DNA of 64,000 nucleotides from Iocasia fonsfrigidae (GTDB lineage: Bacteria > Bacillota > Halanaerobiia > Halanaerobiales > DTU029), in the NCBI RefSeq assembly GCF_017751145.1, contig NZ_CP046640.1, positions 124,001 to 188,000 on the forward strand, given 5' to 3'. Numbering within the stretch: position 1 is the first letter of the stretch; each line of letters starts with the position of its first letter. The position numbers were made by a program, and so were the translations under genes. Under the pieces are notes generated by a model. The model made no database searches. It saw only the letters and a program-made list of their open reading frames with translations, and was not told the DNA's origin. Below, piece by piece: positions 30,333 through 50,093 of this stretch.

Positions 30333-30362
30333 TTTACTAGTGTTTATTTTTTATGATATAAT
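30333..30362 (+). promoter_or_regulatory. Candidate promoter of cassette copy 2
   Basis: TTTACT, an 18-base spacer and a perfect TATAAT, about 70 bases upstream of the copy 2 kinase-like gene. A terminator precedes it, so copy 2 is likely transcribed independently of copy 1. Confidence 0.5.
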
Positions 30363-30435
30363 AAATTAAGATTTATACCCTAGGAATGGGGGGGGAATCT
30401 GACGGAATGATAAATTATTAAGGGGGGAGATAATT

Positions 30436-31383: not shown

Positions 31384-31859
31384 CAACTTGGGTATAGTTA
31401 AGGATTATATGATGCGCACCCTGGTTTCAGTTTGTGAGGATGATCAGATAAAAGAGGCCATTAGAATTATGTATAAAGCCGAGATGTCGGTATTACCAGT
31501 TGTTAATGCAGAGAACAAATTTTTAGGGACTATTTATAGTGAAAACATATTAAAGAATATTCTCCCAGAGAAGTATGGCTACCTTGTTAATAATCATTTA
31601 TTATATGGGGTAAATCAGGCAGCTGAAAATTTGATAGAGGTTAAGGAAAGAGGGGTTAAAGAATATATGTCAACCAGAACCTCTGTTGTAATGGAAAATG
31701 ACAAGATGTATAAAATTGCAGATGTTATGTTAGATAATAAAGAATCGATACTTTTTGTTGTCAATGAGTCTGGAAATCTGAGGGGTTATATTTCCCGGGC
31801 AGATTTACTCTATTATTTATTAAAAGTCTGTAATAAACAGGATGAATAAAAAATAAGAC
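30448..31859 (+). repeat. Large direct repeat, copy 2 (partner 27372-28783)
   Basis: Second copy of the 1.4-kb near-identical tract. The junction at the 5' end falls inside codon four of the kinase-like gene, and the 3' end falls just after the CBS gene stop. Confidence 0.93.
31388..31849 (+). CDS. Two-CBS-domain regulatory protein, copy 2
   Basis: A 153-residue CBS-pair protein nearly identical to copy 1 at both ends. The centre reads HLLYGVNQAAENLIEVKERG and then VKEYMSTRTSVVMEN, where copy 1 has a different linker. Changes are confined to the link between the CBS motifs, where ligand contacts and partner contacts often lie. This suggests that the two copies sense different ligands or bind different antiporters. 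TTG start, same ribosome-binding site arrangement as copy 1. Confidence 0.82.
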   Translation: MGIVKDYMMRTLVSVCEDDQIKEAIRIMYKAEMSVLPVVNAENKFLGTIYSENILKNILPEKYGYLVNNHLLYGVNQAAENLIEVKERGVKEYMSTRTSVVMENDKMYKIADVMLDNKESILFVVNESGNLRGYISRADLLYYLLKVCNKQDE

Positions 31860-31890
31860 TATAATTTAATAAGATACTGAGGTGTAATAA

Positions 31891-33198
31891 ATGGATTTTG
31901 AAATTGATAAATTACGGGACATTGGGGAGTGGTTTGTATTAAATCAGGCTAGCAATAAATTTATTTATGTGGTAGGTTTTTTGATCTTTATGGCTTTATT
32001 AGTTGTCTTATTATCTAAAAAGTATAGGGTTCCTATTGTTGTTGGATATGTTTTTTTGGGTATGTTATTTAGTCATGATGTTATAAGTGCCCTCCCTTTT
32101 ATAAGTCCAGAACAAAAAGAATGGTACTTTTTTACCTTGAACAACTTTGAGTATATGACTAATATAGCTCTGGCATTTATTGCTTTTACTATTGGTACTG
32201 AGCTTTCGGTTAAGATGTTAAGACGTCTGGGTAAACCGATTATGTTTATTGCCTTTATACAATGTATAGCAGCTTTTCTTGTAGTAACAATAGCGGTACT
32301 TGCTATTGGTAAGCCGCTATATCTGGCTTTAATATTGGGGGCAATATCTTCAGCAACAGCACCAGCCGCAACTGTAATGGTACTTAAGGAATATAAAGCT
32401 GAAGGTGTACTGACAGCAATGATCATTGCTGTAATAGGGATAGATGATGCTATAGCCCTGATAATTTTTAGTCTAATAGAACCTATTGCTCTTACGCAAT
32501 ATAGTGGGAGTGGCTCCCTGGCTATTAGCCATCTATTGGGAGAACCGATGATAGAGATTTTTGCTTCTCTATTTATTGGCTTGATTATCGGTTACCTTTC
32601 CCAAAGTTTAATAAGTACCTTTGAGGATAGTACTAAGAAAATTTTAACTTTAGTCACAACTATTATAGGTGGATCAGCACTGGCGCTTTTACTGAATTTG
32701 TCTCCCTTAATAACTAATATGGCAGTTGGTTTTGCTTTTCGTAACTTTGCCAGGAAAAACCTTGGTGTAGGTAATTATATGGACATACTTACGATACCTT
32801 TATATGCTCTATTTTTTATTCTGGCTGGGACAGAGATAAGGTTGGCAAGTATAGCTTCAAGTAGTTTTTTGATCATTGCTTTTGTTTATTTAATCTCCAG
32901 GGTTATAGGTAAGGTGTCAGGTGCCTCTTTAGGGGCAATTTTGGGACAGGCACCAGATAAAGTCAAGAAATATATTGGTTTAGGCTTGTTACCGCAGAGT
33001 GGTGTTGCTATAGCAATGGCCTATACTGTGCAGCAGGATTTTATAGCAGTTCCTGAAGTTGGTTTGCTGGTTTTTAATGTGTTGTTATTTACAGCAGCAC
33101 TTACTGAGGTATTTGGACCATTTGCTACCAAATATGCAGTAGTCAAAGCTGGTGAAGCACATGGTTTAGAAGAGGGAGTACGAAAAGAGAATGCTTAA
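31891..33198 (+). CDS. CPA2-family cation:proton antiporter, copy 2
   Basis: A 435-residue paralogue of the antiporter at 28826, about three-quarters identical by eye. It keeps RVPIVVGYVFLGML, SATAPAATVMVLKEY and the GIDDAIAL ion-binding pair. Differences are spread across loops and lipid-facing helices (for example SPEQKEWYFFTLNNFEYM). The C-terminal tail is longer (GLEEGVRKENA). GAGGTG precedes the ATG. The split between near-identical upstream genes and diverged transporter genes suggests specialised ion or pH ranges under shared regulation. Confidence 0.85.
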   Translation: MDFEIDKLRDIGEWFVLNQASNKFIYVVGFLIFMALLVVLLSKKYRVPIVVGYVFLGMLFSHDVISALPFISPEQKEWYFFTLNNFEYMTNIALAFIAFTIGTELSVKMLRRLGKPIMFIAFIQCIAAFLVVTIAVLAIGKPLYLALILGAISSATAPAATVMVLKEYKAEGVLTAMIIAVIGIDDAIALIIFSLIEPIALTQYSGSGSLAISHLLGEPMIEIFASLFIGLIIGYLSQSLISTFEDSTKKILTLVTTIIGGSALALLLNLSPLITNMAVGFAFRNFARKNLGVGNYMDILTIPLYALFFILAGTEIRLASIASSSFLIIAFVYLISRVIGKVSGASLGAILGQAPDKVKKYIGLGLLPQSGVAIAMAYTVQQDFIAVPEVGLLVFNVLLFTAALTEVFGPFATKYAVVKAGEAHGLEEGVRKENA

Positions 33199-37554: not shown

Positions 37555-37605
37555 TTGACAAACAGAGAAAGACATGATATTATATAATTAATGTAACCGG
37601 TTACA
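37555..37605 (+). promoter_or_regulatory. Promoter with LacI-type operator for the glycyl radical enzyme operon
   Basis: TTGACA (37555-37560), 17 bases, TATTAT (37578-37583), predicted start near 37590, then the perfect palindrome TGTAACCGGTTACA (37592-37605). The CG-centred palindrome is the LacI/GalR type. The operon's own LacI regulator is encoded at 41098. Repressor bound here would block the start of transcription. Confidence 0.75.
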
Positions 37606-37678
37606 GTTGTTTTGCCAGGGATTATTGAATTTTAATATTAAAAAATGTTATATTGTTACATTTTAGGAGGTGATGTTG

Positions 37679-40090
37679 TTGAGTGAGAGAACCAAGAAAC
37701 TAAGGGATGAATTAATGAACACTATACCAGCAATTTGTTCAGAAAGAGCTAAAATATTTACTGAATCTATGAAAGAAAGTGTTGGCCAGCCTATTGTTAA
37801 AAGAAGGGCTGAGGCTTTTAGTAAGGTGTTAAAAGAGATGAGACTTTATGTAAGGAGAGATGAATTAATTGTTGGTAATCAGGCAAGCAAACCTCGTTCG
37901 GCGCCTGTTTTTCCTGAATATTCTGTAGAGTGGATCAAGGATGAGTTAAATGGTAATCCATATCATTTTAGTGAAAGGCCATCAGATAAATTTGAGTGTG
38001 ATAAAAAAACTAGCAATGAATTAATGGAGATAATTGATTACTGGCAGGGCAAAACCTTATTTAAAAATTTAAAGGAACTACTACCAGAAGAGGCGAATAA
38101 GGCCTGGGAGATGGGTGCAATTGATGAAACCTGGGTATCAGCAGGGGGGTTAGGCAACATATTGCCTGACTATAGTGTTATACTTAATAATGGTTTAAGC
38201 TCATTTATCAGGCAAGCTGAAGAGGTTATTGCTAGTTTGGATCTTAAACAACCAGCTCAAATAAAGAAATATTGGTTTTTAAAGGCGGTAATCACTACTA
38301 ATAAGGCTGTGATTGATTTTGCCCATCGTTTTGCAAATAAACTTAGACAAATGGCAGTGGATACCAACAATAAACAGCATAAAAAAGAGCTAGAAATTAT
38401 GGCCAGTAATTGTCTGCGAGTTCCAGAAAAGCCTGCTACATCATTCTGGGAAGCCCTCCAATCTGTCTGTTTTGTCCATTTGGCTATTCAAATTGAGACA
38501 AATGGTCATGCAATTTCATTAGGTAGGTTTGACCAATATTTATGGCCTTTTTATAAAAAGGATCTTGAAAATGGAGTTATTAATAAAGATGAAGCACTTG
38601 AACTTGTAGAAAACTTCTTTATAAAGACAAATGAGGTAAATAAATTACGTTCCTGGCCTGATACAGAATATTTTCCTGGTTACCATATGGCAGAAAATCT
38701 TGCTATAGGGGGTCAAAATGCAAAAGGTGAGGATGCTGTCAATGAACTAACTTATATCATCCTAGCTGCAACAGAGAATTTAAAGTTGCCTAAACCATCT
38801 GTTTCCTTAAAGTGGTTTGAAGGAACGTCGAAAGATTTTATGGAAAGAGCCCTAGAAGTTGTACAAAATCATTCTGGTGGACAGCCTGCTTTTTATAATG
38901 ATTTAGGAGTTATAAGGATGCTAAAAAATATGGGTGTAAAAAATGAGGATTGTTACAACTGGGCACCTGTAGGTTGTATCGAAGCATCAATACCAGGGAA
39001 ATGGGATTTTGCAGCAAAAGGCTCCTGGTTAAATACTGCTAAAATACTTGAAATAACTTTAAATAATGGGAAAGACCCTAAAACAGGTATCACTCTTTTG
39101 CCAGGAGATGGTGACCTAACTACCTTTAATAATATACAGGAGGTTATGAAGGCATTTAAAAAACAATTGCGCTATTATATGAATTTACAGGTTATAACAG
39201 AGCATATAAATGATGAGTTACATATGCTACATGATGTTAATGCCTTTAGATCTTCGCTTATACAGGATTGTATTAAAAGGAGTAAATCACTTATTGAAGG
39301 GGGTTCAATTTATTCTGCTGATGGTGGGCCAACTGTGGGGGCAATGACAGCAGGGGATTCCTTAGCTGCTATAGAAACAGTAATTTTTAATAAAGCTTGG
39401 TTAACAGGTAGCCAGTTACAGCATGCCCTGGAGACTAATTTTACTGATGATACTACGGATCCTACTGGTGAAGAAATAAGACAAATGCTGCTAAATAAAA
39501 CACCTAAATTCGGAAATGATGATGATAAAGCAGATAGATGGACTGTTTTAATCAATGATTTTATGGGTTCTACTTATCATCATGAATTTAAGAATTCTCG
39601 TTATGGCAAAGGACCAATTCCAGGGACATATGCCTTAAGTCAAAGTTCGGTAACAGGTAATGTAGCTTTTGGTAATGCTGTTGGGGCTACACCAGATGGA
39701 CGGCAAGCTCAAAAACCTCTAAATAATGGGGTATCACCTGCAACAGGGGCAGAGAGAAATGGATTAGTTGCAACTATTAATTCTGTAAGTAAGTTGCCGA
39801 GTATCTGGTTCCAAAAGGGGGCAATCTTTAATGTAAGACTGAGCCCAAACATTTTAAAAAGCAAAGTGGGTAAAGAGAGAGTAACTGGAATAATAGAGAC
39901 ACTTTTCAATAACAATCAGTATCATATACAGTTTAATGTAATAGGAAATGAAACCCTTAAAGATGCGCAAGAGAAACCAGAAGATTATCGTAATTTGATG
40001 GTCAGGGTTGCGGGGTATAGCGCATTTTTTACACCTCTTAATAAAGAATTACAGGATGATATTATTAAGCGTATGGAATTTAGTAACTAA
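37679..40090 (+). CDS. Glycyl radical enzyme of the dehydratase (GCxE) type, substrate unknown
   Basis: An 803-residue glycyl radical enzyme. The thiyl cysteine and acid lie in APVGCIEASIPGK; counted from the chosen start they are C433 and E435, positions that match the glycerol dehydratase and choline TMA-lyase group. The radical glycine is G779 in RVAGYSAFF, 24 residues from the C-terminus, as in that group. Pyruvate formate-lyase uses CC in place of GC-x-E, so formate-lyase activity is unlikely and C-O or C-N bond cleavage (dehydration or elimination) is likely. The start is uncertain: AGGAGG ends at 37670 and TTG 37679 has best spacing. It heads an operon with its own activase, a LacI regulator, a sugar importer, a kinase and an aldolase. 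Substrate: a polyol or sugar derivative is inferred. Confidence 0.9.
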   Translation: MSERTKKLRDELMNTIPAICSERAKIFTESMKESVGQPIVKRRAEAFSKVLKEMRLYVRRDELIVGNQASKPRSAPVFPEYSVEWIKDELNGNPYHFSERPSDKFECDKKTSNELMEIIDYWQGKTLFKNLKELLPEEANKAWEMGAIDETWVSAGGLGNILPDYSVILNNGLSSFIRQAEEVIASLDLKQPAQIKKYWFLKAVITTNKAVIDFAHRFANKLRQMAVDTNNKQHKKELEIMASNCLRVPEKPATSFWEALQSVCFVHLAIQIETNGHAISLGRFDQYLWPFYKKDLENGVINKDEALELVENFFIKTNEVNKLRSWPDTEYFPGYHMAENLAIGGQNAKGEDAVNELTYIILAATENLKLPKPSVSLKWFEGTSKDFMERALEVVQNHSGGQPAFYNDLGVIRMLKNMGVKNEDCYNWAPVGCIEASIPGKWDFAAKGSWLNTAKILEITLNNGKDPKTGITLLPGDGDLTTFNNIQEVMKAFKKQLRYYMNLQVITEHINDELHMLHDVNAFRSSLIQDCIKRSKSLIEGGSIYSADGGPTVGAMTAGDSLAAIETVIFNKAWLTGSQLQHALETNFTDDTTDPTGEEIRQMLLNKTPKFGNDDDKADRWTVLINDFMGSTYHHEFKNSRYGKGPIPGTYALSQSSVTGNVAFGNAVGATPDGRQAQKPLNNGVSPATGAERNGLVATINSVSKLPSIWFQKGAIFNVRLSPNILKSKVGKERVTGIIETLFNNNQYHIQFNVIGNETLKDAQEKPEDYRNLMVRVAGYSAFFTPLNKELQDDIIKRMEFSN

Positions 40091-40098
40091 ATAATTAT

Positions 40099-40128
40099 CT
40101 TAAGGGCTCTATTAATACAGCCCTTAAG
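40099..40128 (+). promoter_or_regulatory. Intercistronic hairpin between glycyl radical enzyme and activase
   Basis: CTTAAGGGCT and AGCCCTTAAG form a perfect 10-bp stem with a 10-base loop. No T-tract follows, so it is more likely an mRNA stabilising or processing hairpin or a weak terminator. It would keep activase levels below those of the abundant enzyme. Confidence 0.5.
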
Positions 40129-40152
40129 AATACTTTCAGGAGAGGAATAGAA

Positions 40153-41082
40153 ATGGTCGATTCAGGAACTAAAGGGATAATTTTTGACCTTAAACGCTTT
40201 GCTACAGCAGATGGGCCCGGTATTCGTGGGTTAATTTTTTTAAAAGGTTGTCCCTTAAGATGTAAGTGGTGTGCTAATCCAGAGTCTCAATTAAAAAAAA
40301 CCCAGCTTATATATTATCAGAATAAATGCAGTGGCTGTGGCAGATGTATAGAAATTTGCCCTCAGGATGCTATTAAACAAGATGAAAGCTTTGGTCTGGT
40401 AGTAGATAGTGCCAGATGTAATCAATGTGGTAAATGTGTTGAACGTTGCTATTATGAAGCCAGGGAATTAGTTGGTAAAGAGCTTACTGTTGGACAATTA
40501 ATGAATACTATTAGACGGGATAAGAGTTTTTATGATAACTCTAGGGGTGGAATTACTTTAACTGGTGGAGAACCACTATTACAGCCAGAATTTACACGGG
40601 ACTTGTTAAAACTCTGTAGTAAGGAAGGGATTAATACTGCTATAGAAACCAGTGGATATGGAAAATGGGAATGTATAGAGGAAATAATTCCGTATTTAGA
40701 TCTGATTTTTTATGATATTAAACACATTGACCCTGATTTGCACCAGAAATATACGGGGATATCTAATGATTTAATATTAGCAAACCTTAAACAGCTAGAT
40801 ACCATCTTAAAAGAAAAAAAAATAATTGTAAGAGTACCATTTATTCCCGGTTGTAATAGTGGTGATGTAATACAGAAAAGGATTATGGCTTGGGTTGCAG
40901 ATTTAGCAAGTGTAAAAAGAATTGAGATTATGCCTTATCACCGGTTAGGAACAAATAAATACTGCGGACTGGGTAGGAGCTACGAATTAGAGGGCTTGGA
41001 GGCTGTCAACAAAGTAGAATTAGCTTATTTGCTTGATTTTGGGAAAGAATATGGAGTTAAGATTCAGATTGATGCTAGTTAG
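40153..41082 (+). CDS. Glycyl radical enzyme activating enzyme (radical SAM)
   Basis: A 309-residue radical SAM activase. The SAM cluster motif CPLRCKWCANPE lies near 35-46 and is CxxxCxxC type. Two extra ferredoxin-like clusters follow (CSGCGRCIEICP near 60; CNQCGKCVERC near 90), as in activases of dehydratase-type glycyl radical enzymes. The GGEPL loop is present (TGGEPLLQ), along with DIKHIDP. It abstracts hydrogen from the partner enzyme's glycine to make the stable radical. The gene follows the enzyme gene by 62 bases with a hairpin between. Confidence 0.93.
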   Translation: MVDSGTKGIIFDLKRFATADGPGIRGLIFLKGCPLRCKWCANPESQLKKTQLIYYQNKCSGCGRCIEICPQDAIKQDESFGLVVDSARCNQCGKCVERCYYEARELVGKELTVGQLMNTIRRDKSFYDNSRGGITLTGGEPLLQPEFTRDLLKLCSKEGINTAIETSGYGKWECIEEIIPYLDLIFYDIKHIDPDLHQKYTGISNDLILANLKQLDTILKEKKIIVRVPFIPGCNSGDVIQKRIMAWVADLASVKRIEIMPYHRLGTNKYCGLGRSYELEGLEAVNKVELAYLLDFGKEYGVKIQIDAS

Positions 41083-41097
41083 GGGTGAACAAAGTCT

Positions 41098-42096
41098 ATG
41101 GGTATGACAATTAGGGATATTGCAGAGATGTGTGATGTTTCAACGGCTACTGTGTCAAGGGTGTTAAACTCACCTGATCAAGTTGCTGAAAAAACAAGGG
41201 AAAAGGTGTTGCAGGTTATTAAAGAAGAGAATTATATTCCTAATCAAATTGCTAAAAATTTAAATTCTAATATCACTAATAATATTGCCTTATTCATCTT
41301 TGATATTATGAACCCTTTTTTTACTAAATTAATAAAAGAGGCCAATAGAATAGCATTTGATTGGAATTATTCGCTCATTATCTGTGATACGGAAAATGAG
41401 AAAGAGAGGGAATTAAAATATTTAAATTATATCAATAAAAGCAAGTTTGCAGGTTTAATTTTGACGGAGGGTATTTCTGGTGAGATTTTGGAAAAGCTTG
41501 ATCCTTCATACCCAGTTGTTTGTATTGACCGTTATATTAACAGCAATAGCAATAGGAATTATCCTATTATTACCTCTGAGAATAGGGAGGGGGCAAGAAA
41601 GGCTGTTGAATATCTAGTTACTTTAAATCATAAAAAAATAGCACATGTTTCAGGAACACCAGGTGTTAAGACTGCAGATGAGCGAAAACAGGGATATTTG
41701 GACATTGTCGAAAAATATGAACTTCCAGTTGATGAAAGGTATATCTATACAGGAGATTTCAGAACTGAGAGTGGTATTAAGGCTTTAGAATATTTTCTGT
41801 CTTTAGAGGAAATGCCAACAGCTATTTTTTGTGCCAATGATTTAATGGCCAAGGGTTTGCTTGGCAGGTCAATGTCGTTAAATATAAATGTCCCGGGAGA
41901 TTTATCAATAATTGGGTTTGATGGGATTTTAAATAATTCTTATTATAAATTAACTACAGTTAAGCAGTCTATTGCCCAAATGGCATCGGTAGCAATGAAG
42001 GAGCTGATTAACTTAATTGAAAAAAAGACTGTATCCCCAAAAGAAAGGAAGATACCAGGGAAATTAATTGTTGGGGATACCTGTCAAAAACTTTAA
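41098..42096 (+). CDS. LacI-family transcriptional regulator
   Basis: A 332-residue regulator. The N-terminal helix-turn-helix and hinge are typical: TIRDIAEMCDVSTATVSRVL, then YIPNQIAKNLNSN. The periplasmic-binding-like effector domain follows from about 60 (NNIALFIFDIMNPFFTKLI, CIDRYI, EYLVTLNHKKIAHVSG, IFCANDLMAKGLLG, SIIGFDG). It probably represses this operon by binding the palindrome at 37592-37605, with the imported substrate or a phosphorylated product as inducer. It lies inside the operon, 15 bases after the activase gene. The ATG at 41098 follows AGGGGTG; a second in-frame ATG lies two codons later. Confidence 0.9.
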   Translation: MGMTIRDIAEMCDVSTATVSRVLNSPDQVAEKTREKVLQVIKEENYIPNQIAKNLNSNITNNIALFIFDIMNPFFTKLIKEANRIAFDWNYSLIICDTENEKERELKYLNYINKSKFAGLILTEGISGEILEKLDPSYPVVCIDRYINSNSNRNYPIITSENREGARKAVEYLVTLNHKKIAHVSGTPGVKTADERKQGYLDIVEKYELPVDERYIYTGDFRTESGIKALEYFLSLEEMPTAIFCANDLMAKGLLGRSMSLNINVPGDLSIIGFDGILNNSYYKLTTVKQSIAQMASVAMKELINLIEKKTVSPKERKIPGKLIVGDTCQKL

Positions 42097-42101
42097 GTAT
42101 G

Positions 42102-42214
42102 TGTTCGAAAAGGTATAAATAGGGGATTATATATCCCTAAGCGAAGTTAAGGTGTTACCGTTGAGTGAAGGGATATATAATCCCCGGCGGGTATATACTG
42201 ATACTTTTCGAACA
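42102..42214 (+). repeat. 113-bp hairpin element between the lacI gene and the importer genes
   Basis: Terminal arms TGTTCGAAAAG and CTTTTCGAACA enclose internal arms GGGGATTATATATCCC and GGGATATATAATCCCC, with unequal linkers. It is bounded by the lacI stop and the ribosome-binding site of the ABC ATPase gene. Possible readings are a MITE-like or REP-like insertion or an mRNA structural element that sets relative expression. No clean target-site duplication is visible. Confidence 0.6.
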
Positions 42215-42247
42215 GAATCTTTTAAATTGAAAGGAGGGAGGATTAAG

Positions 42248-43738
42248 ATGAGTAAACTTCTTGAAATGAAAAATATAAGCAAGACTTTTCCTGGGGTAAA
42301 AGCCCTTGATAATGTACAATTTGATCTTCAAAAAGGGGAAGTACATGTTTTATTAGGAGAAAATGGTGCTGGTAAATCAACCTTGATTAAAATACTTTCT
42401 GGTGCCCATACAAAAGATAATGGGGAAATTTTTATTGAGGGTAAAGAGGCTACCATAGAAAAACCAGCAGATGCTTTTGCATATGGGGTAAGTATTATTT
42501 ATCAGGAGTTTAATTTGAATCCCTATATGTCGATTTATGAAAATTTGTTTCTAGGTAGGGAATACACAAGTAAATATAGGTTTATTAATAAGCAGAAAGC
42601 AATCAAAAAGACTAAAGAGATAAGTAAGGTAGTAGGCTTAAATGCTAAACCAACTACCCTGGTTGAGGAACTAACTGTTGCTGAAAAACAATTGGTAGAG
42701 ATTGCTAAGGCGCTTATCTTTGAGGCCAAGATGATAGTCTTTGATGAACCAACAGCTACCCTGACTGAGACCGAAATTGAGCTCTTATTCAAGATAATAA
42801 GGGATTTAAAGGCAAATGGGATGGGAATAGTTTATATATCTCATCGAATGAATGAACTAAAAGAGATTGGGGATAGGTGTACTATTTTAAGGGATGGTCA
42901 ATATGTAGATACTGTGGAGCTGGATCAGGTAAGTAAAAACGAGTTAGTTAGTAAAATGGTTGGTCGCAAAATAGATGAGAATAATAAGAAAAAAGATAGT
43001 CATAGTTGTGATGAAGTAGTTCTTAGAGTTGTAAATCTGTGTTATAAAGATAAGGTTAATAATGCTTCTTTTGAGCTAAGAAAGGGGGAAATATTAGGTA
43101 TTGCTGGTTTAGTTGGGGCTGGTAGAACTGAACTGGCTAAGACGATTATAGGGGAATTTGCTAAAGAAAAAGGAGAAACTATTGTAAAGGATAGGGTAGT
43201 AGAACTAAGTTCACCTAGTGTAGCGATAAAAAATGATATAGTTTATCTAAGTGAGGACAGAAAAGATGAAGGATTATTTCTTGAACATAGTGTCAAAAGA
43301 AATATTACAATTTCTTCTTTGGATAAGATAAGGGCCAAATTTTGCTTGCATAATAGCAAAGAGAAAAACATCTGTCAAAGTTTAATAGAAAAAATGAACA
43401 TTAAAACCCCTTCACAGGAGACTAAAGTTGTTACTTTAAGTGGGGGTAATCAACAAAAGATTGTTATTGCTAAGGGGCTTTGCCAGCAGTCAAGTATATA
43501 TATATTTGATGAGCCTACCAGAGGTATTGATGTAGGGGCTAAGGAAGAAATATACAATATCATGACCAAGTTAGTTAAAGATGGAGCTTCAATTATTATG
43601 ATTTCTTCTGATATGCCAGAGATAATGAAAATGTCTGACCGTATCATGGTCATGTATCATGGTCAGATAGCTAATATCTTTGATAACACTAGTGATTTAA
43701 GTCAAGAACAGATTTTATCTTCTGCGATAGGGGGCTAG
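42248..43738 (+). CDS. Sugar ABC transporter ATPase (RbsA-like, two NBDs)
   Basis: A 496-residue protein with two nucleotide-binding domains. The first has Walker A GENGAGKSTLIK, Q-loop YQEF, signature LTVAEKQLVEIAKAL and Walker B MIVFDEPTATL. The second has a degenerate Walker A GLVGAGRTELAK, signature LSGGNQQKIVIAKGL and IFDEPTRGIDVGAKEE, the usual asymmetry of ribose-type importers. I use ATG 42248, preceded by AAAGGAGGG; the in-frame extension to 42152 lies in the hairpin element. It sits in the operon lacI-ABC-permease-binding protein and should energise uptake of the sugar or polyol that feeds the kinase and aldolase. Confidence 0.93.
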   Translation: MSKLLEMKNISKTFPGVKALDNVQFDLQKGEVHVLLGENGAGKSTLIKILSGAHTKDNGEIFIEGKEATIEKPADAFAYGVSIIYQEFNLNPYMSIYENLFLGREYTSKYRFINKQKAIKKTKEISKVVGLNAKPTTLVEELTVAEKQLVEIAKALIFEAKMIVFDEPTATLTETEIELLFKIIRDLKANGMGIVYISHRMNELKEIGDRCTILRDGQYVDTVELDQVSKNELVSKMVGRKIDENNKKKDSHSCDEVVLRVVNLCYKDKVNNASFELRKGEILGIAGLVGAGRTELAKTIIGEFAKEKGETIVKDRVVELSSPSVAIKNDIVYLSEDRKDEGLFLEHSVKRNITISSLDKIRAKFCLHNSKEKNICQSLIEKMNIKTPSQETKVVTLSGGNQQKIVIAKGLCQQSSIYIFDEPTRGIDVGAKEEIYNIMTKLVKDGASIIMISSDMPEIMKMSDRIMVMYHGQIANIFDNTSDLSQEQILSSAIGG

Positions 43739-43742
43739 TTTA

Positions 43743-44681
43743 ATGTTAAAAGGAATAAATGCTAGAGAATTTTTAAAGAAATTTGGCATCTATCTGGGGT
43801 TTTTAATTATATTTCTATTATTTTCTGTTTTAAGTCCTTACTTTTTTGCCCAAAGGAATATCCTTAATATTATAGTTCAATCTGCAATAATAGCCATCAT
43901 TGCTATTGGAGAAACTATAGTTATTTTGACAGGTGGAATTGATTTAAGTGTAGGTTCTATTGTAGCTTTTGTAAGTATAATAACAGGAATGACATTAGTA
44001 GCTGGTTGGCCAATACCCTTAGCTATAATCTTTAGTATTATGGTAGGGGTGATGATTGGTTTAATAAATGGGACTATTATTTCGTTTGGTAAAGTGCCTG
44101 CTTTCATTATGACCCTGGGTATGATGAGCATTGCTAAGGGAGCTTCCTTAGCTGCTAATGATGGAAGGCCTGTATCTGGGTTACCAATTTCTTTTCAAAA
44201 TATTGCCACAACAAGAATTCTGGGTATACCGATTTTTGTAATCTATTGTATTATTGCCTTTACTATTATGTATATTGTATTAAACAAAATTAAACTAGGG
44301 CGCTATATTTACGCTATCGGTGGGAATAAGAGTGCTGCCCGTTTATCAGGAATTAAGGTAAAAAAGATAAATACTATTGCTTATGTTTTTAGTGGACTTT
44401 TTGCGGGAATTGGTGGTGTTTTACTAACAGCTAGGCTTAATTATGCGACACCGCTATCTGGGGAAGGGTATGAACTTGATGTGATTGCTGCTGCAGTTAT
44501 TGGGGGAACAGCCCTTTCTGGTGGTTCAGGAAATATTCTAGGTACACTTGTTGGGGCGCTGATGTTAGGAACTTTAAGGAATGGTTTAACACTTTTAGAT
44601 GTATCAAGTTTTTATCAGAAAATTATTATTGGGACTGTTATTATAGCGGCAGTTTTTGTAGACAAAGCAAAGGATAGATAG
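43743..44681 (+). CDS. Sugar ABC transporter permease (RbsC-like)
   Basis: A 312-residue membrane protein with about eight to ten hydrophobic segments. It carries the permease features TGGIDLSVGSIVA, the EAA-type loop GGNKSAARLSGIKVKKI and later GTALSGGSGNILGTLVGALM. This is typical of ribose/xylose/galactose-type permeases. It starts four bases after the ATPase stop, so it is coupled. It functions as a homodimer with the RbsA-like ATPase and a binding protein. Substrate specificity cannot be read from sequence. Confidence 0.92.
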   Translation: MLKGINAREFLKKFGIYLGFLIIFLLFSVLSPYFFAQRNILNIIVQSAIIAIIAIGETIVILTGGIDLSVGSIVAFVSIITGMTLVAGWPIPLAIIFSIMVGVMIGLINGTIISFGKVPAFIMTLGMMSIAKGASLAANDGRPVSGLPISFQNIATTRILGIPIFVIYCIIAFTIMYIVLNKIKLGRYIYAIGGNKSAARLSGIKVKKINTIAYVFSGLFAGIGGVLLTARLNYATPLSGEGYELDVIAAAVIGGTALSGGSGNILGTLVGALMLGTLRNGLTLLDVSSFYQKIIIGTVIIAAVFVDKAKDR

Positions 44682-44786
44682 AAGTTTTTTGAGGAATATT
44701 CAATAATTTTTAGGGTTAGAAAGGTGAATTTTTTGATTGAATATTGTGATCTTTCAAATGTTTCAAACACAAGGGGGATAATAAAA

Positions 44787-45743
44787 ATGAAAAAATTAAT
44801 TATTATGTTGACTCTTTTGATATTGATAGTATGTAGTTCTAGTTCATTTGTTTTGGCAAAAGATATAAGAATTGGTTTTATTCCCATGACCTTAAGCAAT
44901 GAGTATTTTATTACCATGGTTAATGCAGCAAAACAGGAAGCAGAAAAATTAGGTGTAGAATTACTGGTTCAGGCTGGCCAGAGGCATGGTAGTGCCCAGG
45001 AGCAATTGCAAATTGTAGAAAATATGATAACGCGTCAGGTTGATGCTATTTGTATTGTTGCTAGTAGTTCAGAAGGATTAATTACTGCTTTGGGCAAAGC
45101 ACAGCGTGCTGGTGTTCCAGTAATTAATCTTGATACCCGGGTTGATCCAGTAGCGGTTAAAAAGGCCGGTCTTGACCCGATACCATTCATTGGTACCAAC
45201 AATTATACTGGTGCTAAAAAAGCAGGAGCAAGGGCTTTTGAATTAGTTGGCGCTAAGGCTGAAGTAGCTATTTTAACAGGTATTTCCGGGCAACAAAATG
45301 CGAGAGATAGGCGAAATGGATTTTACGACCTTGTAGAAGGAAAATTTAAAGTAGTGGCAGAACAAACAGCAAACTGGGAAGTAGAACAGGGGTATAATGT
45401 ATCCCAGAATATACTTCAGGCAAATCCTTCATTAAAACTCATTTTTGCCAGTAATGATAATATGGCCTTAGGTGCCTATAGGGCTATCAAAGAAGCAGGA
45501 CTGGATAATAAAATTGAAGTTATTGGATTTGATGCTGTACCAGCAGCCCTTGAAAGTATTAAAAATGGAGAGATGGACTCTACAGTAGCACAGTTTCCTG
45601 CAGAAATGGGAATTAAAGGTGTACAGACAGCAGTAAAAATGATTGAGGGTAAAGATGTAGATAATACTATGTATACAAAAACCCTGTTAATTACTAAAGA
45701 GAATGTTGAAGAATTCATACAATATTTAGCTCAGTTCAAGTAA
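44787..45743 (+). CDS. Sugar ABC transporter substrate-binding protein (RbsB-like)
   Basis: A 318-residue periplasmic-binding protein with a signal peptide (MKKLIIMLTLLILIVC then SSSSFVLA, cleavage near A|KD). The mature part has IGFIPMTLSNEYFITMVNAA, VEAIC-like VDAICIVASSSEGLI, DTRVDP, EVAILTG and FASNDNMALGAYRA, as in ribose-type binding proteins. A cysteine near position 17 does not fit a lipobox well, so it may be secreted or loosely anchored. ATG 44787 has AAGGGGG nine bases upstream. It is the last transporter gene in the operon. Which sugar it binds is unknown, and a ligand screen would define the pathway. Confidence 0.92.
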   Translation: MKKLIIMLTLLILIVCSSSSFVLAKDIRIGFIPMTLSNEYFITMVNAAKQEAEKLGVELLVQAGQRHGSAQEQLQIVENMITRQVDAICIVASSSEGLITALGKAQRAGVPVINLDTRVDPVAVKKAGLDPIPFIGTNNYTGAKKAGARAFELVGAKAEVAILTGISGQQNARDRRNGFYDLVEGKFKVVAEQTANWEVEQGYNVSQNILQANPSLKLIFASNDNMALGAYRAIKEAGLDNKIEVIGFDAVPAALESIKNGEMDSTVAQFPAEMGIKGVQTAVKMIEGKDVDNTMYTKTLLITKENVEEFIQYLAQFK

Positions 45744-45819
45744 ATTAAGATATTTCACCTTTACTAACCCTATTTTAAATTTAAATATTTTAACGTCCAT
45801 TTTGAATGGAGGTCAAAAC

Positions 45820-47313
45820 ATGAATCAAGAGATTTTTGTTGGAATTGATTTAGGTACTACTGGAATGAAAATTATTTTTATGGACACCGATGGGACAATA
45901 TTAGCCAAGAATTATGTTGATTACCCGATACTAAATCCTGAACAGGGGTATGCAGAGCAAAGGCCTTCTGATTGGTGGCAGGGTTTATGTAAGATCTCTA
46001 CTGAAGTGTTAAACGAACATCCTGGTTTAAAAGATAGAATAGCTTGTATAGGTATTTCTGGCCAGATGCATACCCAGGTCTATCTTGATAACAATAACCG
46101 CATATTGAGGAATGCAATAACCTGGATGGATCAGAGGACAAGGAAATTAGTGGAAAGATATAATGCAAAAGAAGAAAACAGGATGATTATTTCTGATTAT
46201 ACCCTTAACTCTCTTTCTACTACCTATACTGCACCACATATTGTTTGGGTAAAAGAAGAAGAGCCTGATATATATAGGAAAACTGAAAAGGTTCTTCTGG
46301 CCAAAGATTATATCAAATACATGTTAACTGGAGAGATGGTTACGGACTATTCAGATGCAGTAGGAACCCTTTTGTTTAATACTGTTAAGAAAAAGTGGTC
46401 TGACGAGATGTTTAGACTTTTTGACTTAGCTCCAAGTTTAATGCCTGAGGTAGATAAATCAGCCCAAGTAATTGGAAGAATCACCCCTGAAGCAGCTAGT
46501 ATTACTGGACTTCCTGAGGGCACTCCTGTTATAAATGGTTCTGCTGATCAGGCTGCTACCTCACTTGGGGCCGGGGTCATTCATCCTGGAGAGGTTACAG
46601 CAATAGTGGGTACAGCTGGTGTTATTTCAGTTATTTCCGATGAACCTATAGCTGACCCTGAACACAGGGTACTATGTTGGAATTATTGTCTAGAAGACAA
46701 ATGGGTTAACCTGGGGATAATGCAGACAGCTGGTGAATCCTTAAACTGGTTTAAACGGACCTTTGATAGTGAGTCAGATGCTGTTTTTGATATCTATAAC
46801 CAGGAAATAGCTAATATAGCAGATGGTAGTGAAGGTTTAATATTTTTACCTTATTTGATGGGAGAAAGATCACCTCACTGGGATTCTGAAGCTCGGGGAG
46901 TATTTTTTGGCATGAGCATGAATCATAATAAATATCATTTTGTTAAGTCAATTATGGAAGGTGTTAGTTTTGCCTTTAAAAATAACCTTGAAGTCATGGA
47001 ATCATTAGGAATCAATATTGATAAACTGCGGCTGCTTGGTGGAGGCAGTAAGAGTGAAGAATGGCTTAATATTATGGCTAAAGTACTTAACAAAAAGATT
47101 AGTCCAGTAAAAGTCGCAGAAACTGGTGCTTTGGGTAGTTCTATTTTATGTGGCTTAGCACTGGGGGTTTACGATTCCCTGGATGATGTGGTTTCTCGTC
47201 TAACTATGACTGGCAAAGAATATTATTACGAAGAAATACCTGAAATATACTATAAAAATTACAATAAATATAAAAAGATATATCAGAGAACAAAGGATAT
47301 TTTTAAACTATAA
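45820..47313 (+). CDS. FGGY-family sugar kinase (xylulokinase-like)
   Basis: A 497-residue FGGY kinase. The N-terminal phosphate loop is GIDLGTTGMKIIFMDTDG; the central region has CIGISGQMHTQVYLD, NAITWMDQRTRKLVER and INGSADQAATSLGAG; the C-terminal part has MGERSPHWDSEARG and LLGGGSKSEEWLNIMAKVLN. Sequence is nearest in pattern to xylulokinase (D-xylulose 5-kinase) but ketose specificity in FGGY kinases is hard to tell by eye. GGAGG precedes ATG 45820. It lies downstream of the importer and upstream of the aldolase, so it should phosphorylate a ketose or polyol from the glycyl radical pathway. Confidence 0.88.
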   Translation: MNQEIFVGIDLGTTGMKIIFMDTDGTILAKNYVDYPILNPEQGYAEQRPSDWWQGLCKISTEVLNEHPGLKDRIACIGISGQMHTQVYLDNNNRILRNAITWMDQRTRKLVERYNAKEENRMIISDYTLNSLSTTYTAPHIVWVKEEEPDIYRKTEKVLLAKDYIKYMLTGEMVTDYSDAVGTLLFNTVKKKWSDEMFRLFDLAPSLMPEVDKSAQVIGRITPEAASITGLPEGTPVINGSADQAATSLGAGVIHPGEVTAIVGTAGVISVISDEPIADPEHRVLCWNYCLEDKWVNLGIMQTAGESLNWFKRTFDSESDAVFDIYNQEIANIADGSEGLIFLPYLMGERSPHWDSEARGVFFGMSMNHNKYHFVKSIMEGVSFAFKNNLEVMESLGINIDKLRLLGGGSKSEEWLNIMAKVLNKKISPVKVAETGALGSSILCGLALGVYDSLDDVVSRLTMTGKEYYYEEIPEIYYKNYNKYKKIYQRTKDIFKL

Positions 47314-47337
47314 ATTAAGATTAAGGGTGATAAAATA

Positions 47338-47976
47338 ATGGATGACTTCAAACAAATTGTTGTTGATGCAGGAGTTAAGATGTGCCAGAGAAGCTTGACA
47401 GTTGGTACTTGGGGTAATATTAGTTATCGGGATCCTGAAAGCGGTAATATTTTTTTAACACCTAGTGGTATGGATTATCAGAAATTAGGGACTAATGATA
47501 TTGTTGTTTATAATGCAAAAGGGGAAATAATCGAGGGCCAAAGAAAACCTTCAATTGAATGGTCAATGCATTTAGCTATTTTTGCGGCAAGGGAAGATGT
47601 AAATGCTATTATTCATACACACCCGACTTATTCCACTGCTTTTGCTATTACAGATACTTCAATACCACCAGTTTCAGAGGACTTTGTACAGATTGTAGGT
47701 GATTCAGTAGAATGTGCAGAATATGCCCTGCCTGGGACAAAAGAATTGGGGGAGTATGCTGTTAAAGCTTTAGCATCTAAAAATGCGGTATTATTGACCA
47801 GTCATGGGACCTTATGTGTAGGCCCTAACATGGATTTTGCTTTTAAGGTTTGTGATGTTGTAGAAAAAACAGCTTATCTCTATCTAATGAGTAAGAATTT
47901 AGGTGAGGCTAGAATTATACCACCTGCTGATATAAAGGCGATGCAGGATTTTGTTAAAACAAAGTATGGTCAGTAG
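47338..47976 (+). CDS. Class II aldolase (L-fuculose-phosphate aldolase family)
   Basis: A 212-residue zinc aldolase. Metal ligands are visible in AIIHTHPTYST (two histidines near 92-94) and SHGTLCVG (histidine near 152). The catalytic acid is in KPSIEWSMHL (near 73) and the phosphate-binding region is GTWGNISYRD. Known members cleave ketose-1-phosphates to dihydroxyacetone phosphate and an aldehyde, or epimerise ribulose 5-phosphate. Length favours the fuculose-phosphate aldolase group. It is the last gene before a very strong terminator, completing the operon. The product aldehyde is unknown. Confidence 0.85.
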   Translation: MDDFKQIVVDAGVKMCQRSLTVGTWGNISYRDPESGNIFLTPSGMDYQKLGTNDIVVYNAKGEIIEGQRKPSIEWSMHLAIFAAREDVNAIIHTHPTYSTAFAITDTSIPPVSEDFVQIVGDSVECAEYALPGTKELGEYAVKALASKNAVLLTSHGTLCVGPNMDFAFKVCDVVEKTAYLYLMSKNLGEARIIPPADIKAMQDFVKTKYGQ

Positions 47977-48014
47977 ATATAAGAAAACTCATATTAGAAA
48001 AATAACTCTTTAGT

Positions 48015-48065
48015 AATAGTTTTATCTTGTTATCGGATAACAAGATAAAACTATTATTTTTTTAA
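48015..48065 (+). terminator. Strong terminator ending the catabolic operon
   Basis: AATAGTTTTATCTTGTTAT and ATAACAAGATAAAACTATT form a perfect 19-bp stem around CGG, followed by a T8 tail. It closes the transcription unit from 37590. Confidence 0.93.
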
Positions 48066-48111
48066 AGTTTAGGAAACTATGCAATTTTGAAATTGTGGAT
48101 AACTTTGAAGA

Positions 48112-48239
48112 CCGACAGATATATTTGTTTTCCTTGCCGTGCGCTGCGGTGTCCTACCTCCGCTTACTGTCGAGAAATTTTCCTTCGGCGTCGTGCCTAC
48201 GGATAATTTCTAGAGTCGTCCAACAAATATATCTGTCTG
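48112..48239 (+). repeat. 128-bp GC-rich hairpin element with 16-bp terminal inverted repeats
   Basis: GACAGATATATTTGTT (48114-48129) pairs perfectly with AACAAATATATCTGTC (48222-48237). Inside is an AGAAATTTTCC/GGATAATTTCT stem (one mismatch) and a region unusually rich in G and C for this genome. The direct copies of TAACTTTG that flank the element (48100-48107 and 48248-48255) are not adjacent to the arms, so they are weak evidence for an insertion scar. It is probably a MITE-like or REP-like intergenic repeat. Confidence 0.6.
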
Positions 48240-48332
48240 GATTATGTTAACTTTGTGTAAAGTAAAAAATTAATAATTATTGATTAAGTTTGGGTGGCGA
48301 ACCCTTCTACGTTTAATTAAATTGCTATATAG

Positions 48333-48402
48333 TTGATTTATAAAAATTATTATGCTACAATATTAATTAGAATTCTTATTATAAGAATTCTAATTAATAT
48401 TG
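48333..48402 (+). promoter_or_regulatory. Promoter overlapped by a 45-bp palindrome upstream of the MarR gene
   Basis: TTGATT (48333-48338), 17 bases, TACAAT (48356-48361). From 48358 to 48402, 22-bp perfect arms (outer part CAATATTAATTAG, inner TTCTTAT) flank a single T. The palindrome covers the -10 box and start site and ends at the ribosome-binding site. A MarR dimer repressing its own operon would fit well. Confidence 0.7.
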
Positions 48403-48414
48403 GGGGTGGTTTTG

Positions 48415-48858
48415 ATGAAGAGAAAGTTAATTAAAGAAGCAGCAGAAGAGATTGCTGGGTTTATGCCTTTTTATTTTAAATATATAAACCCAATTATACA
48501 TAAAGATGAAAAATATTCTTTAAATGAAAATCAAATAAAATTAATAATGATGCTGTATTTAACAGAGAGTCAAACACCTACGAAACTTAGTATTTTTATG
48601 GATATGCCTAAAGGCAGTTTAACAACTATAATTGATTCGCTTGTTGATAAAGGTTTTATAACAAAAAAAGAAGATATTAATGATAGAAGAAAAAAGAAGA
48701 TAAGTATCACTGAAAAAGGAAAGGGATTTGTAGCTTATAAAACTAACGATAGTTTACTTAAATTTAACGACTTATTTCAAAATTTTAAGGAAGATAGTTT
48801 GGAAAGGATAATAATAGGGTTTAGAGAACTATCTCAAAACTTAAAGTTAAGTAATTAA
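48415..48858 (+). CDS. MarR-family transcriptional regulator
   Basis: A 147-residue winged-helix regulator. The recognition helix and wing region reads TPTKLSIFMDMPKGSLTTII, then DSLVDKGFITKKEDINDRRKKKISITEKG, the standard MarR order. ATG 48415 has GGGGGTGG upstream; the TTG at 48400 overlaps it. It probably represses itself and the adjacent glycosyltransferase through the 45-bp palindrome, and releases DNA when a phenolic or antibiotic-like ligand binds. The family call is clear; the inducer is not visible. Confidence 0.88.
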   Translation: MKRKLIKEAAEEIAGFMPFYFKYINPIIHKDEKYSLNENQIKLIMMLYLTESQTPTKLSIFMDMPKGSLTTIIDSLVDKGFITKKEDINDRRKKKISITEKGKGFVAYKTNDSLLKFNDLFQNFKEDSLERIIIGFRELSQNLKLSN

Positions 48859-48920
48859 TTTTGTACAAATATTAAATTCCGATTATATTCATTTATAGTA
48901 TGAAAGGGGTAAGTTGAAGA

Positions 48921-50093
48921 ATGGATACTATTATATTTTTTGGTGTTCCCGCTCATGGTCATATTAACCCAACACTTCCAATTGTTGAAGAATTAATTAC
49001 AAGAGGAAAGAGGATTATTTATTATTGTACTGAAGATTTTAAGGATATAATAGAAAACAGTGGTGCCCTATTTAGACCTTATAAAATGGAAATTATGAAT
49101 AAAAATAATAAATTAATTTCTAAAAATTTTATTTCACTAACAAGGTCAATTTTAGAATCTACAGATGATATAATAAATCATCACCTTGAAGAGGTGAGAG
49201 ATGAAAATCCAGTTTGTATAGTTCATGATTCTTTTTGTACCTGGGGCAGGTGTATTGCCAAGGTTTTAAATATAAGGGCAGTATGTTCAACTACGATATT
49301 TCCAATAGGAAAAAAGTTTTTAAATCCAGGGATATTAATGATGATGCTTAGTAGATTGGGAGATTTGATAAGATTTAAGAAGCTTGCTAAATACTACAGT
49401 AAAAAATATAATATTGAAGTTGATCTTAAACATACTATTATCAATAAAGAAGATCTTAATATAGTATATACTTCAAGGTATTTCCAGCCTAAATCAGAAG
49501 AAATAGATGAGAGCTATAAGTATGTTGGCCCATCAATTAACCATAGAGATGAAGACCTTGATTTCCCTTTTGAAAAATTGAGGAATAGAAAAGTTATTTA
49601 TATTTCTCTAGGTACATTACTTAACCAAAACATTAGTTTTTATCAGAAATGTTTAAAAACCTTTGCTCAAAAGGAATTTCTTGTTATTATGTCTGTGGGT
49701 AAAAATACAGAGATAAAAGAGTTGGGTGAAATTCCTGATAATTTTATTGTCAAAGATTATGTGCCACAAATTGAGGTTTTACAAAGGGCAGATTTATTTA
49801 TATCACATGCTGGTATGAATAGTGTACATGAAGCCTTATATTTTGGTGTTCCTTTAATTTTAGTTCCACAACAACCAGAACAGCTAATGATTGGGAAAAG
49901 GATTGAGGAATTAGGAGCAGGGATTTGTTTAAATAATAAAGAAATTAATGAAAATATACTTCGAGATTCTGCAGATAAAATCATGAAACACCAATCATAT
50001 TTGCAAAATACAAACTATATAAAGGAAACTTTTAGAAAAGCTGGCGGCTATAAAAGGGCTGTTGATATAATTTTGGATACATTACCACACTAG
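48921..50093 (+). CDS. GT1 glycosyltransferase, macrolide-glycosyltransferase-like
   Basis: A 390-residue GT-B glycosyltransferase. The N-terminal acceptor domain begins TIIFFGVPAHGHINPTLPIV, and the C-terminal donor domain has ISLGTLL, YVPQIEVLQRADLFISHAG, MNSVHEALYFGVPLILVPQQ, and PEQ-LMIGKRIEELGAG. This fits the YjiC/MGT group that attaches sugars from UDP-donors to macrolides, flavonoids or peptides, often inactivating antibiotics. The HAG-x-N donor motif is conserved. The gene is 62 bases after the MarR gene and likely induced with it. The natural acceptor is unknown. Confidence 0.85.
   Translation: MDTIIFFGVPAHGHINPTLPIVEELITRGKRIIYYCTEDFKDIIENSGALFRPYKMEIMNKNNKLISKNFISLTRSILESTDDIINHHLEEVRDENPVCIVHDSFCTWGRCIAKVLNIRAVCSTTIFPIGKKFLNPGILMMMLSRLGDLIRFKKLAKYYSKKYNIEVDLKHTIINKEDLNIVYTSRYFQPKSEEIDESYKYVGPSINHRDEDLDFPFEKLRNRKVIYISLGTLLNQNISFYQKCLKTFAQKEFLVIMSVGKNTEIKELGEIPDNFIVKDYVPQIEVLQRADLFISHAGMNSVHEALYFGVPLILVPQQPEQLMIGKRIEELGAGICLNNKEINENILRDSADKIMKHQSYLQNTNYIKETFRKAGGYKRAVDIILDTLPH

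Follow-up and report, generated by a model that had tools for sequence, protein, structure and literature searches.

An operon-like unit with a glycyl radical eliminase-type enzyme, an ABC importer and an FGGY kinase in Iocasia fonsfrigidae

Organization of the operon

We analysed a 64,000-nucleotide stretch of the Iocasia fonsfrigidae genome (hereafter the window), in which positions 37555–48058 read as a single transcription unit from promoter to terminator. It consists, in order, of a promoter, a LacI-type operator, genes for a glycyl radical enzyme (GRE; 37670–40090, start codon uncertain between 37670 and 37676), a radical-SAM GRE activase (40153–41082), a LacI-family repressor (41098–42096), an RbsABC-type importer (i.e. 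RbsA-type ATPase, 42245–43738; RbsC-type permease, 43743–44681; RbsB-type sugar-binding protein, 44784–45743), an FGGY kinase (45820–47313) and a class II aldolase (47338–47976), and an intrinsic terminator. All eight genes are intact and lie on the + strand in the order that the initial annotation gave, and its proposal of one operon agrees with the promoter and terminator found at the limits of the set. The intergenic gaps (62, 15, 148, 4, 102, 76 and 24 bp) depend on the start codons chosen: the open reading frames of rbsA, rbsB and the kinase gene open at 42152, 44724 and 45802, respectively, and an RBS-like sequence with an ATG marks 42245 for rbsA. The activase matches TIGR02494 (338.9 bits against a cut-off of 174.35), the repressor is a family match and the permease was assigned by NCBIfam scan. 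Between lacI and rbsA, positions 42098–42222 carry a palindromic element that is repeated across the genome and is probably incidental. The terminator (48012–48058, + strand; z −5.97) has 20 counted pairs, the maximum of the scan, followed by a T run. The host bacterium is apparently anaerobic.

The sigma-70-type promoter TTGACA-17-TATTAT (37555–37583, + strand) matches 11 of 12 consensus positions, and the start of the region in the initial annotation (37555) coincides exactly with its −35 box. As the promoter scan as a whole stays at shuffle level (45 sites against 44.9 in shuffles), we base this call on the position of the promoter and on a like promoter in G014, a second genome of the same order. 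Downstream lies the perfect palindrome TGTAACCGGTTACA (37592–37605), a probable LacI-family operator; the G014 operon carries TGTAATCAATTACA at the equivalent place relative to its promoter, plus a second copy before the start codon. In the I. fonsfrigidae genome, the exact pattern TGTAAYCRRTTACA occurs at the operon and twice next to a different LacI gene; its backward control has no sites. This operator-pattern search of the genome found no distant pathway gene. With up to two mismatches, the pattern has 8 matches within the window against 3.69 expected (palindromes counted on both strands), and at least 8 matches occurred in 5 of 100 shuffles of the window.

Recurrence of the gene set

Counting the window, four GRE orthologs were found, the others being in G014, a Synergistetes MAG and a Bipolaricaulota MAG; one of the four is truncated. 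G014 has the same eight-gene order, with a GRE 69–70% identical and a LacI 55% identical to those of the window. In the Synergistetes MAG, the GRE, activase, RbsABC and kinase genes lie together in a different order. GRE, activase, importer and kinase are thus common to all three informative loci, and these two recurrences indicate that the gene association exceeds chance. The ortholog search of the genome contig collection used only two peptide patterns, so its yield of at least two loci is a lower bound. Besides I. fonsfrigidae, G014 alone had a GRE above 45% identity among both 38 genomes of the order and 59 of the class, and none did among 398 genomes drawn from the phylum, for which at most two candidates per genome were scored. 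The plasmid collection gave 46 records, all below 60% identity. No description of a GRE with an FGGY kinase and an RbsABC importer appeared among the matches listed from the open-licence literature.

Identity and active site of the GRE

Judged by its motifs, the window GRE is an eliminase. Its Cys loop reads GC-I-E (C436, E438), and the C and E of this CxE motif, which defines the GRE eliminase class according to an excerpt of PMC8473560, are present in all 34 aligned GRE rows. A glycyl radical loop, RVAGYSA, contains G782 (kept in three of four orthologs, the fourth being the truncated one), and the activase gene adjoins the GRE gene, so that loop and own activase occur together as in an eliminase. 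TIGR01774, a subfamily model, is the only one passed (698.3 bits against 678.2). The initial assignment to the dehydratase/eliminase branch is supported. The GRE scores below every NCBIfam equivalog cut-off (HypD 536 against 1100, CutC 502 against 1050, HpfG 525 against 1000, HpsG 507 against 1000 and PRK09983, which we take to be PflD, 477 against 1109 bits). In the PDB comparison, YbiW (554 bits), glycerol dehydratase (531) and 9rco (538; it carries just the name 'Glycyl radical protein') score almost alike; identity to YbiW is only ∼37%. A three-sequence structure model (mean pLDDT 41.3) is unusable.

The tree contains 34 GRE rows and was built by a short search with SH-aLRT as its only support (no bootstrap); its 30 comparison GREs, chosen for their similarity to the window enzyme, lack CutC, IslA and decarboxylase rows as well as any row known to be PflD. 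The window GRE and its three orthologs (57–70% identity) form a deep clade of their own with a long stem (0.53). This clade falls in the 22-row side that holds YbiW (SH-aLRT 99), where the forks among three groups are unresolved, and is separate (SH-aLRT 100) from a glycerol dehydratase-like clade, identified through one row (L056) that scores 1142 bits to 1r8w. The initial assignment stands at the level of the branch and is refined within it: YbiW-side GREs, not glycerol dehydratase-like ones, are closest.

Four active-site columns set the orthologs apart: (i) column 163 is Asn in 4/4 orthologs against His in all 30 compared GREs; (ii) column 281 is Ala in 4/4 against S (25) or G (5); (iii) column 341 is Ala in 4/4 against Y (14), F (12), N (2) or G (2); and (iv) column 448 is Ala in 4/4 against R in 14/14 YbiW-clade rows, the other 16 rows having R (4), G (3), I (2) or a gap (7). 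Hence H163, Y341 and R448, kept in all 14 YbiW-clade rows, are N, A and A in the orthologs, and the YbiW clade differs from the window GRE at 281 as well. The His, Ser and Tyr/Phe of glycerol dehydratase (1r8w row) at 163, 281 and 341 are likewise replaced by N, A and A, although that clade shares the GRE family, the CxE motif and the glycyl loop with the window enzyme. Tree position and active-site columns both disfavour a diol dehydratase, as the initial annotation had anticipated. The active site has changed relative to the compared relatives, and the substrate may be one still undescribed.

Because its active-site columns are unlike those of all 30 compared rows, the GRE might release something other than oxygen, i.e. 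an amino-, sulfo- or otherwise substituted polyol would lose ammonia, an amine or sulfite; excerpts of PMC7077986 and PMC8473560 describe GRE eliminases that also cut C–N and C–S bonds. We consider this very unlikely, since both importer and kinase are sugar-type proteins and no amine, sulfite or sulfonate gene was recognised in the operon.

Several YbiW-clade GREs adjoin PTS or ROK-kinase genes (open reading frames read by eye; annotated for L073). Since several members of this R448-bearing clade sit with such genes, A448 would fit a substrate that carries no phosphate yet. Also on the YbiW side, the GRE adjoins a fructose-6-phosphate aldolase (FSA) gene in three loci (L075, L076 and L058), and in L076 a glycerol dehydrogenase gene too.

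Importer, kinase and aldolase

The importer scores below the NCBIfam ribose equivalog cut-offs (RbsA 550 against 745, RbsC 278 against 398 and RbsB 190 against 337). Thus, the operon resembles the RbsABC/RbsR ribose operon in combining such an importer with a LacI-type regulator, and differs from it in these scores and in containing a GRE and an aldolase. The binding proteins of the window and the Synergistetes MAG are 65% identical, which suggests that both probably share a ligand. The closest solved binding protein by sequence is 5dte, whose ligand is presumably D-allose. The binding-protein model (mean pLDDT 60) also aligns first with 5dte (VIA-align Z 19.8, rmsd 6.3, 239 aligned), but ribose-binding proteins score within 1, so the model gives no ligand.

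FGGY kinases work on open-chain ketoses and polyols. The window kinase is xylulokinase-like, passing TIGR01312 (XylB, xylulokinase; 464.1 bits against 380.25) and missing a second xylulokinase model, PRK15027 (303 against 912). Compared with 14 other FGGY kinases (including 8 of the 11 other I. fonsfrigidae matches and 3 of the 5 G014 matches), the three ortholog-operon kinases group in a separate clade (95/98); kinases of other GRE operons (L049, L050 and L060) fall outside it. Alternatively, the kinase step could come before the radical step: the kinase would phosphorylate an imported polyol or anhydropolyol, and the resulting ester would be opened or dehydrated by the GRE, much as YbiW acts downstream of PTS import. 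Some FGGY kinases phosphorylate polyols, the matches of the window kinase include glycerol kinases, and YbiW and PflD substrates are 6-phosphates in the excerpted part of PMC12441222. However, the kinase passes the xylulokinase model, and the Arg at 448, for which a phosphate-binding role is a guess, is Ala in all four orthologs; we regard this order as unlikely.

The window aldolase scores best to the L-fuculose-phosphate aldolase model PRK06833, yet below its cut-off (193.6 against 264), whereas the G014 operon aldolase passes this equivalog (345.8) and is a fuculose-type gene recently duplicated inside that genome. On the Synergistetes contig we recognised no aldolase. Within the gene set, GRE, importer and kinase recur together and the aldolase varies. 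Two FSA-like matches (42–43%) lie elsewhere in the I. fonsfrigidae genome, and G014 has none.

The pairing of a fuculose-phosphate-type aldolase with a GRE is known from GRM5 fucose/rhamnose microcompartment loci, whose GRE is a 1,2-propanediol dehydratase (PMC5311937, PMC6325248, both in excerpt). The operon might follow this logic without a compartment: a ketose would be imported, phosphorylated and split into DHAP and either lactaldehyde or glycolaldehyde, from which an unlinked reductase would form 1,2-propanediol or ethylene glycol for the GRE to dehydrate. The G014 equivalog match favours such a route. We nevertheless find it distinctly unlikely, because the GRE belongs to another clade and lacks the dehydratase residues, and because GRM5 logic predicts the reverse of the observed recurrence of GRE, importer and kinase around a varying aldolase. 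Furthermore, neither a reductase nor an aldehyde dehydrogenase gene was recognised in the operon. It also differs from GRM5 loci in having its own importer and kinase. In scans of general scope, not specific to shell families, no shell gene was recognised among open reading frames of at least 100 aa at 34–52 kb, or among the ten proteins at 37670–50093 scanned with NCBIfam; to this extent the initial annotation, which saw no microcompartment genes, is supported. Its suggestion that an alcohol dehydrogenase at 58 kb could reduce the aldehyde is not upheld. This gene (58034–59272) encodes an Fe-ADH but lies unlinked 10 kb past the operon terminator, and the genome has 12 Fe-ADH matches in all (11 over cut-off).

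Proposed pathway

Our best explanation, tentative and of somewhat less than even probability, is that the operon encodes an ABC-fed relative of the YbiW 'radical-mediated glycolysis', with the radical step placed ahead of the kinase and acting on an unphosphorylated sugar-like substrate. The substrate would lack a usable carbonyl, i.e. it would be an alditol or anhydro-alditol (a pyranose-shaped polyol), and the operon would be under LacI repression and have a catabolic role. In this pathway, (i) RbsABC, judging by its gene families, would import the sugar-like compound; (ii) the activase-charged GRE would take H from one carbon and expel the neighbouring oxygen, as water or, as with YbiW, as ring oxygen, giving a deoxyketose without an NAD-dependent step; (iii) the FGGY kinase would phosphorylate the open-chain ketose; and (iv) the aldolase would cleave it, most simply into hydroxyacetone and a phosphorylated aldehyde (e.g. 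glyceraldehyde 3-phosphate), as in the YbiW pathway. No isomerase or dehydrogenase was recognised in the operon (ORF list and NCBIfam scan); the GRE is therefore the most likely source of the ketose required by the kinase. The order of import, radical step or dehydration, kinase and aldolase put forward initially remains plausible.

The DHAP release proposed there fares less evenly. The G014 equivalog match suggests cleavage of a ketose 1-phosphate with DHAP, rather than hydroxyacetone, as product, while the window aldolase is below cut-off and, by chemical reasoning, 1,2-elimination with a C2 ketone leaves a deoxy carbon beside the ketone, so that a DHAP-type retro-aldol should fail. With a probability that we rate slightly below that of our best explanation, the orthologs are a new isofunctional GRE family, with Asn for His, whose sugar-like substrate is opened or dehydrated while still unphosphorylated and then feeds a kinase–aldolase route. 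Its boldest form would reconcile a 1,2-eliminase with a DHAP-type aldolase: a ketopyranose would be opened by the GRE at its CH2–O bond, yielding a 6-deoxy-2,5-diulose; after phosphorylation of O1 by the kinase, the aldolase would release DHAP and methylglyoxal. This form agrees with a binding protein nearest to ribose and allose types, and chemically 1,5-anhydro-hexitols contain this type of bond too. Taken by itself, it has little chance of being correct: methylglyoxal is toxic, no glyoxalase or reductase was recognised in the operon and the energetic gain over ordinary ketose catabolism is not obvious.

Relation to known systems and significance

Ma et al. 2024 is reportedly the primary paper on the YbiW/PflD cleavage. 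YbiW and PflD (1,5-anhydroglucitol 6-phosphate and 1,5-anhydromannitol 6-phosphate lyases) convert 1,5-anhydro-hexitol 6-phosphates to 1-deoxyfructose 6-phosphate (PMC12441222, in excerpt). Likeness to them lies in the position of YbiW on the same side of the tree, in its being the best PDB match (by a small margin) and in the sugar-type genes and aldolase around the GRE. By contrast, they have a PTS and FSA, neither of which is encoded in the window operon with its ABC import, FGGY kinase and class II aldolase. Halanaerobium polyolivorans, according to an excerpt of PMC10536098, takes up mannitol by a PTS, uses small diols through a pdu cluster and does not grow on xylitol or sorbitol.

Because the active-site columns of this clade are distinct and its operon is self-contained and encodes a binding protein, a ligand screen and an anaerobic assay could assign it. 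GREs cut difficult bonds without B12, and to our knowledge each newly found class of GRE substrates has revealed a further part of anaerobic metabolism. If our best explanation is true, radical sugar catabolism would not be confined to the PTS-fed pathway of gut bacteria but would extend to anaerobes from several phyla that rely on ABC import.

Operon organization and protein families

An ORF reading of the window recovers all eight genes that the initial annotation had named as one operon, uninterrupted and collinear: a glycyl radical enzyme (GRE), activase, LacI, RbsA, RbsC, RbsB, FGGY kinase and class II aldolase. The unit starts at a promoter (TTGACA-17-TATTAT, 37555–37583), just after which lies a perfect palindrome, TGTAACCGGTTACA (37592–37605), and ends at an intrinsic terminator (48012–48058). 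The exact pattern TGTAAYCRRTTACA occurs in the Iocasia fonsfrigidae genome at one site at the operon and at two sites adjoining another LacI gene, while its backward control pattern has 0 sites there. A second genome of the order (G014) carries these eight genes in identical order; there, a similar promoter is followed by TGTAATCAATTACA at a relative position matching the window palindrome; TGTAATCAATTACA is present once more ahead of the start codon.

A palindromic element between lacI and rbsA (42098–42222) is a dispersed MITE-like repeat. It has at least 48 matches in the I. fonsfrigidae genome (40 of 52 candidates scored), 16 of which are near-full-length copies at ≥91% identity, counting the window copy. 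The stretch 42092–42230 has a predicted fold of −47.6 kcal/mol (z −6.45). The operon is followed on its 3' side (48400–50093) by a MarR-like regulator and an MGT-family (macrolide-type) glycosyltransferase. Two back-to-back ORF triplets of matching sizes (315/153/432 and 315/153/435 aa; the first is a PfkB kinase) occupy 27360–33198, possibly a tandem duplication.

Among NCBIfam models, the GRE clears a subfamily cut-off only, the activase matches TIGR02494, the regulator is of LacI type, RbsA, RbsC and RbsB score under the ribose equivalog cut-offs, the kinase is above the TIGR01312 cut-off and the aldolase is under that of PRK06833. Sequence comparison of the GRE with the PDB gives 554 bits for YbiW (the Escherichia coli GRE of radical-mediated glycolysis), 538 for 9rco and 531 for glycerol dehydratase, so these scores by themselves pick no relative.

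Distribution and conservation

In the 3.93 Mb I. fonsfrigidae genome the GRE has no match at E 0.001 besides itself. By contrast, many other genomes of the order give a match near 1e-28 to its C-terminal part; these matches read as pyruvate formate-lyase type. G014 is the sole ortholog (70%) among 38 genomes of the order; a class-level search of 59 genomes adds none, and a phylum sample of 398 genomes holds nothing >45% identical apart from the GRE itself. A genome_contigs scan with two peptide patterns found MAG contigs of Synergistetes (57%) and Bipolaricaulota (66%, its GRE truncated at the contig edge; 'GSL' in this record presumably means Great Salt Lake), giving an unevenly sampled set of four orthologs, one truncated.

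The Synergistetes contig has the order RbsA-RbsC-RbsB-kinase-GRE-activase with other genes flanking both sides, and the gene after the activase is probably a DeoR-like regulator. No aldolase was recognised there, and the window aldolase gave no blastp match at 1e-8. Two RbsC-type permeases lie immediately 5' of the Bipolaricaulota GRE. Identities of the window proteins to those of G014 and Synergistetes, respectively, are 69 and 57% (GRE), 60 and 47% (activase), 62 and 49% (RbsA), 65 and 61% (RbsC), 57 and 65% (RbsB) and 61 and 42% (kinase); LacI (55%) and aldolase (34%) have counterparts in G014 only.

A 17-row FGGY tree groups the kinases from the three ortholog operons in a single clade (95/98). 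The 14 kinases outside it comprise 8 of the 11 other I. fonsfrigidae matches, 3 of the 5 from G014, and the kinases of L049, L050 and L060, also from GRE loci. The aldolases differ in origin between the two operons, since that of the G014 operon is a recent duplicate of one in another G014 gene cluster (L035 2997–3659 and L078 9595–10257; 97.3% over 663 bp, about gene length) and has an 81% relative in I. fonsfrigidae outside the window operon. The G014 operon aldolase scores above the L-fuculose-phosphate aldolase equivalog cut-off. The window aldolase departs in alignment from E. coli FucA at PSSEW (PSIEW) and HYM (SED), which we take to be FucA phosphate-binding and catalytic residues.

GRE phylogeny and active-site columns

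We placed the enzyme in a tree of 34 GREs (quick search, SH-aLRT only), most of them chosen for their resemblance to the window GRE, with YbiW added; the two rows serving as outgroup exceed the HypD equivalog cut-off (1402 and 1411 bits). The four orthologs form one clade (SH-aLRT 100, stem 0.53) within a 22-row side shared with YbiW (SH-aLRT 99), whereas glycerol dehydratase-like rows, including L056 (1142 bits to the glycerol dehydratase structure 1r8w), form a separate clade.

Four columns set the orthologs apart from the other 30 rows: 163 (N in 4/4; H in 30/30), 281 (A in 4/4; S in 25 and G in 5), 341 (A in 4/4; Y 14, F 12, N 2, G 2) and 448 (A in 4/4; R in 14/14 of the YbiW clade; R 4, G 3, I 2 and gap 7 in the remaining 16). 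PMC8473560 describes a common beta-1 site (HypD-His160, CutC-Asp216, IslA-Gln193) and a typically aromatic residue at the place of HypD Phe340/IslA Trp374. Alignment with the two HypD rows would put these at positions 163 and 341. The ortholog clade would thus have lost the His of the beta-1 site as well as the aromatic residue, which suggests a different, perhaps larger, substrate.

Importer linkage

RbsA, RbsB or RbsC homologs adjoin (≤7 kb, same strand) 13 of 30 GREs in 28 loci, counted apart from the window GRE and YbiW: 10 of 20 rows on the YbiW side (three orthologs, L049, L050, L055, L057, L063, L064 and L073) and 1 of 8 glycerol dehydratase-side rows (L065). The other two are the second GREs that L049 and L050 carry; in the tree these belong to neither side. 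GRE–importer linkage therefore extends beyond the ortholog clade.

Several GRE loci are sugar-type clusters. L049 (G038) and L050 (G334) hold two radical enzymes inside one cluster, with RbsABC-type genes, an FGGY kinase flanked by the two different GREs, a ribulose-phosphate 3-epimerase and a putative ROK-like kinase. In L055 and L073, from a Bacillota genome and a Chloroflexota cold-seep plasmid, a D-allose-type cluster precedes another ROK-type kinase and a GRE–activase pair. L057, L060, L063 and L064 form another GRE clade (SH-aLRT 100), whose sugar-type clusters include an FGGY kinase or importer genes; L057 and L060 seem to carry class II FBP-type aldolases, and in L057 and L063 the GRE gene is interrupted.

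Proposed pathway

The nearest known logic is that of YbiW/PflD (PMC12441222). On the YbiW side, fructose-6-phosphate aldolase adjoins the GRE in L075, L076 and L058, glycerol dehydrogenase in L076, D-allulose-6-phosphate 3-epimerase and a ROK-type kinase (under its cut-off) in L055 and, by our reading, PTS-type genes in L052 and L054. Two FSA-like genes (42–43%) lie outside the operon in I. fonsfrigidae and none in G014.

A tension remains at the aldolase step: 1,2-elimination to a C2 ketone would leave C1 or C3 deoxy, and a DHAP aldolase needs both oxygens. Most weight is given to a hydroxyacetone-type cleavage by the aldolase, with tail cleavage of the ketose by the GRE kept as a rival. Neither isomerase nor dehydrogenase was recognised among the operon genes; the FGGY kinase should therefore receive its ketose either from the GRE or by import. 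The order in which the kinase precedes the GRE is also retained as a rival. The joint recurrence of GRE, importer and kinase disfavours a diol dehydratase downstream of the aldolase and speaks for a GRE that works before or beside the kinase.
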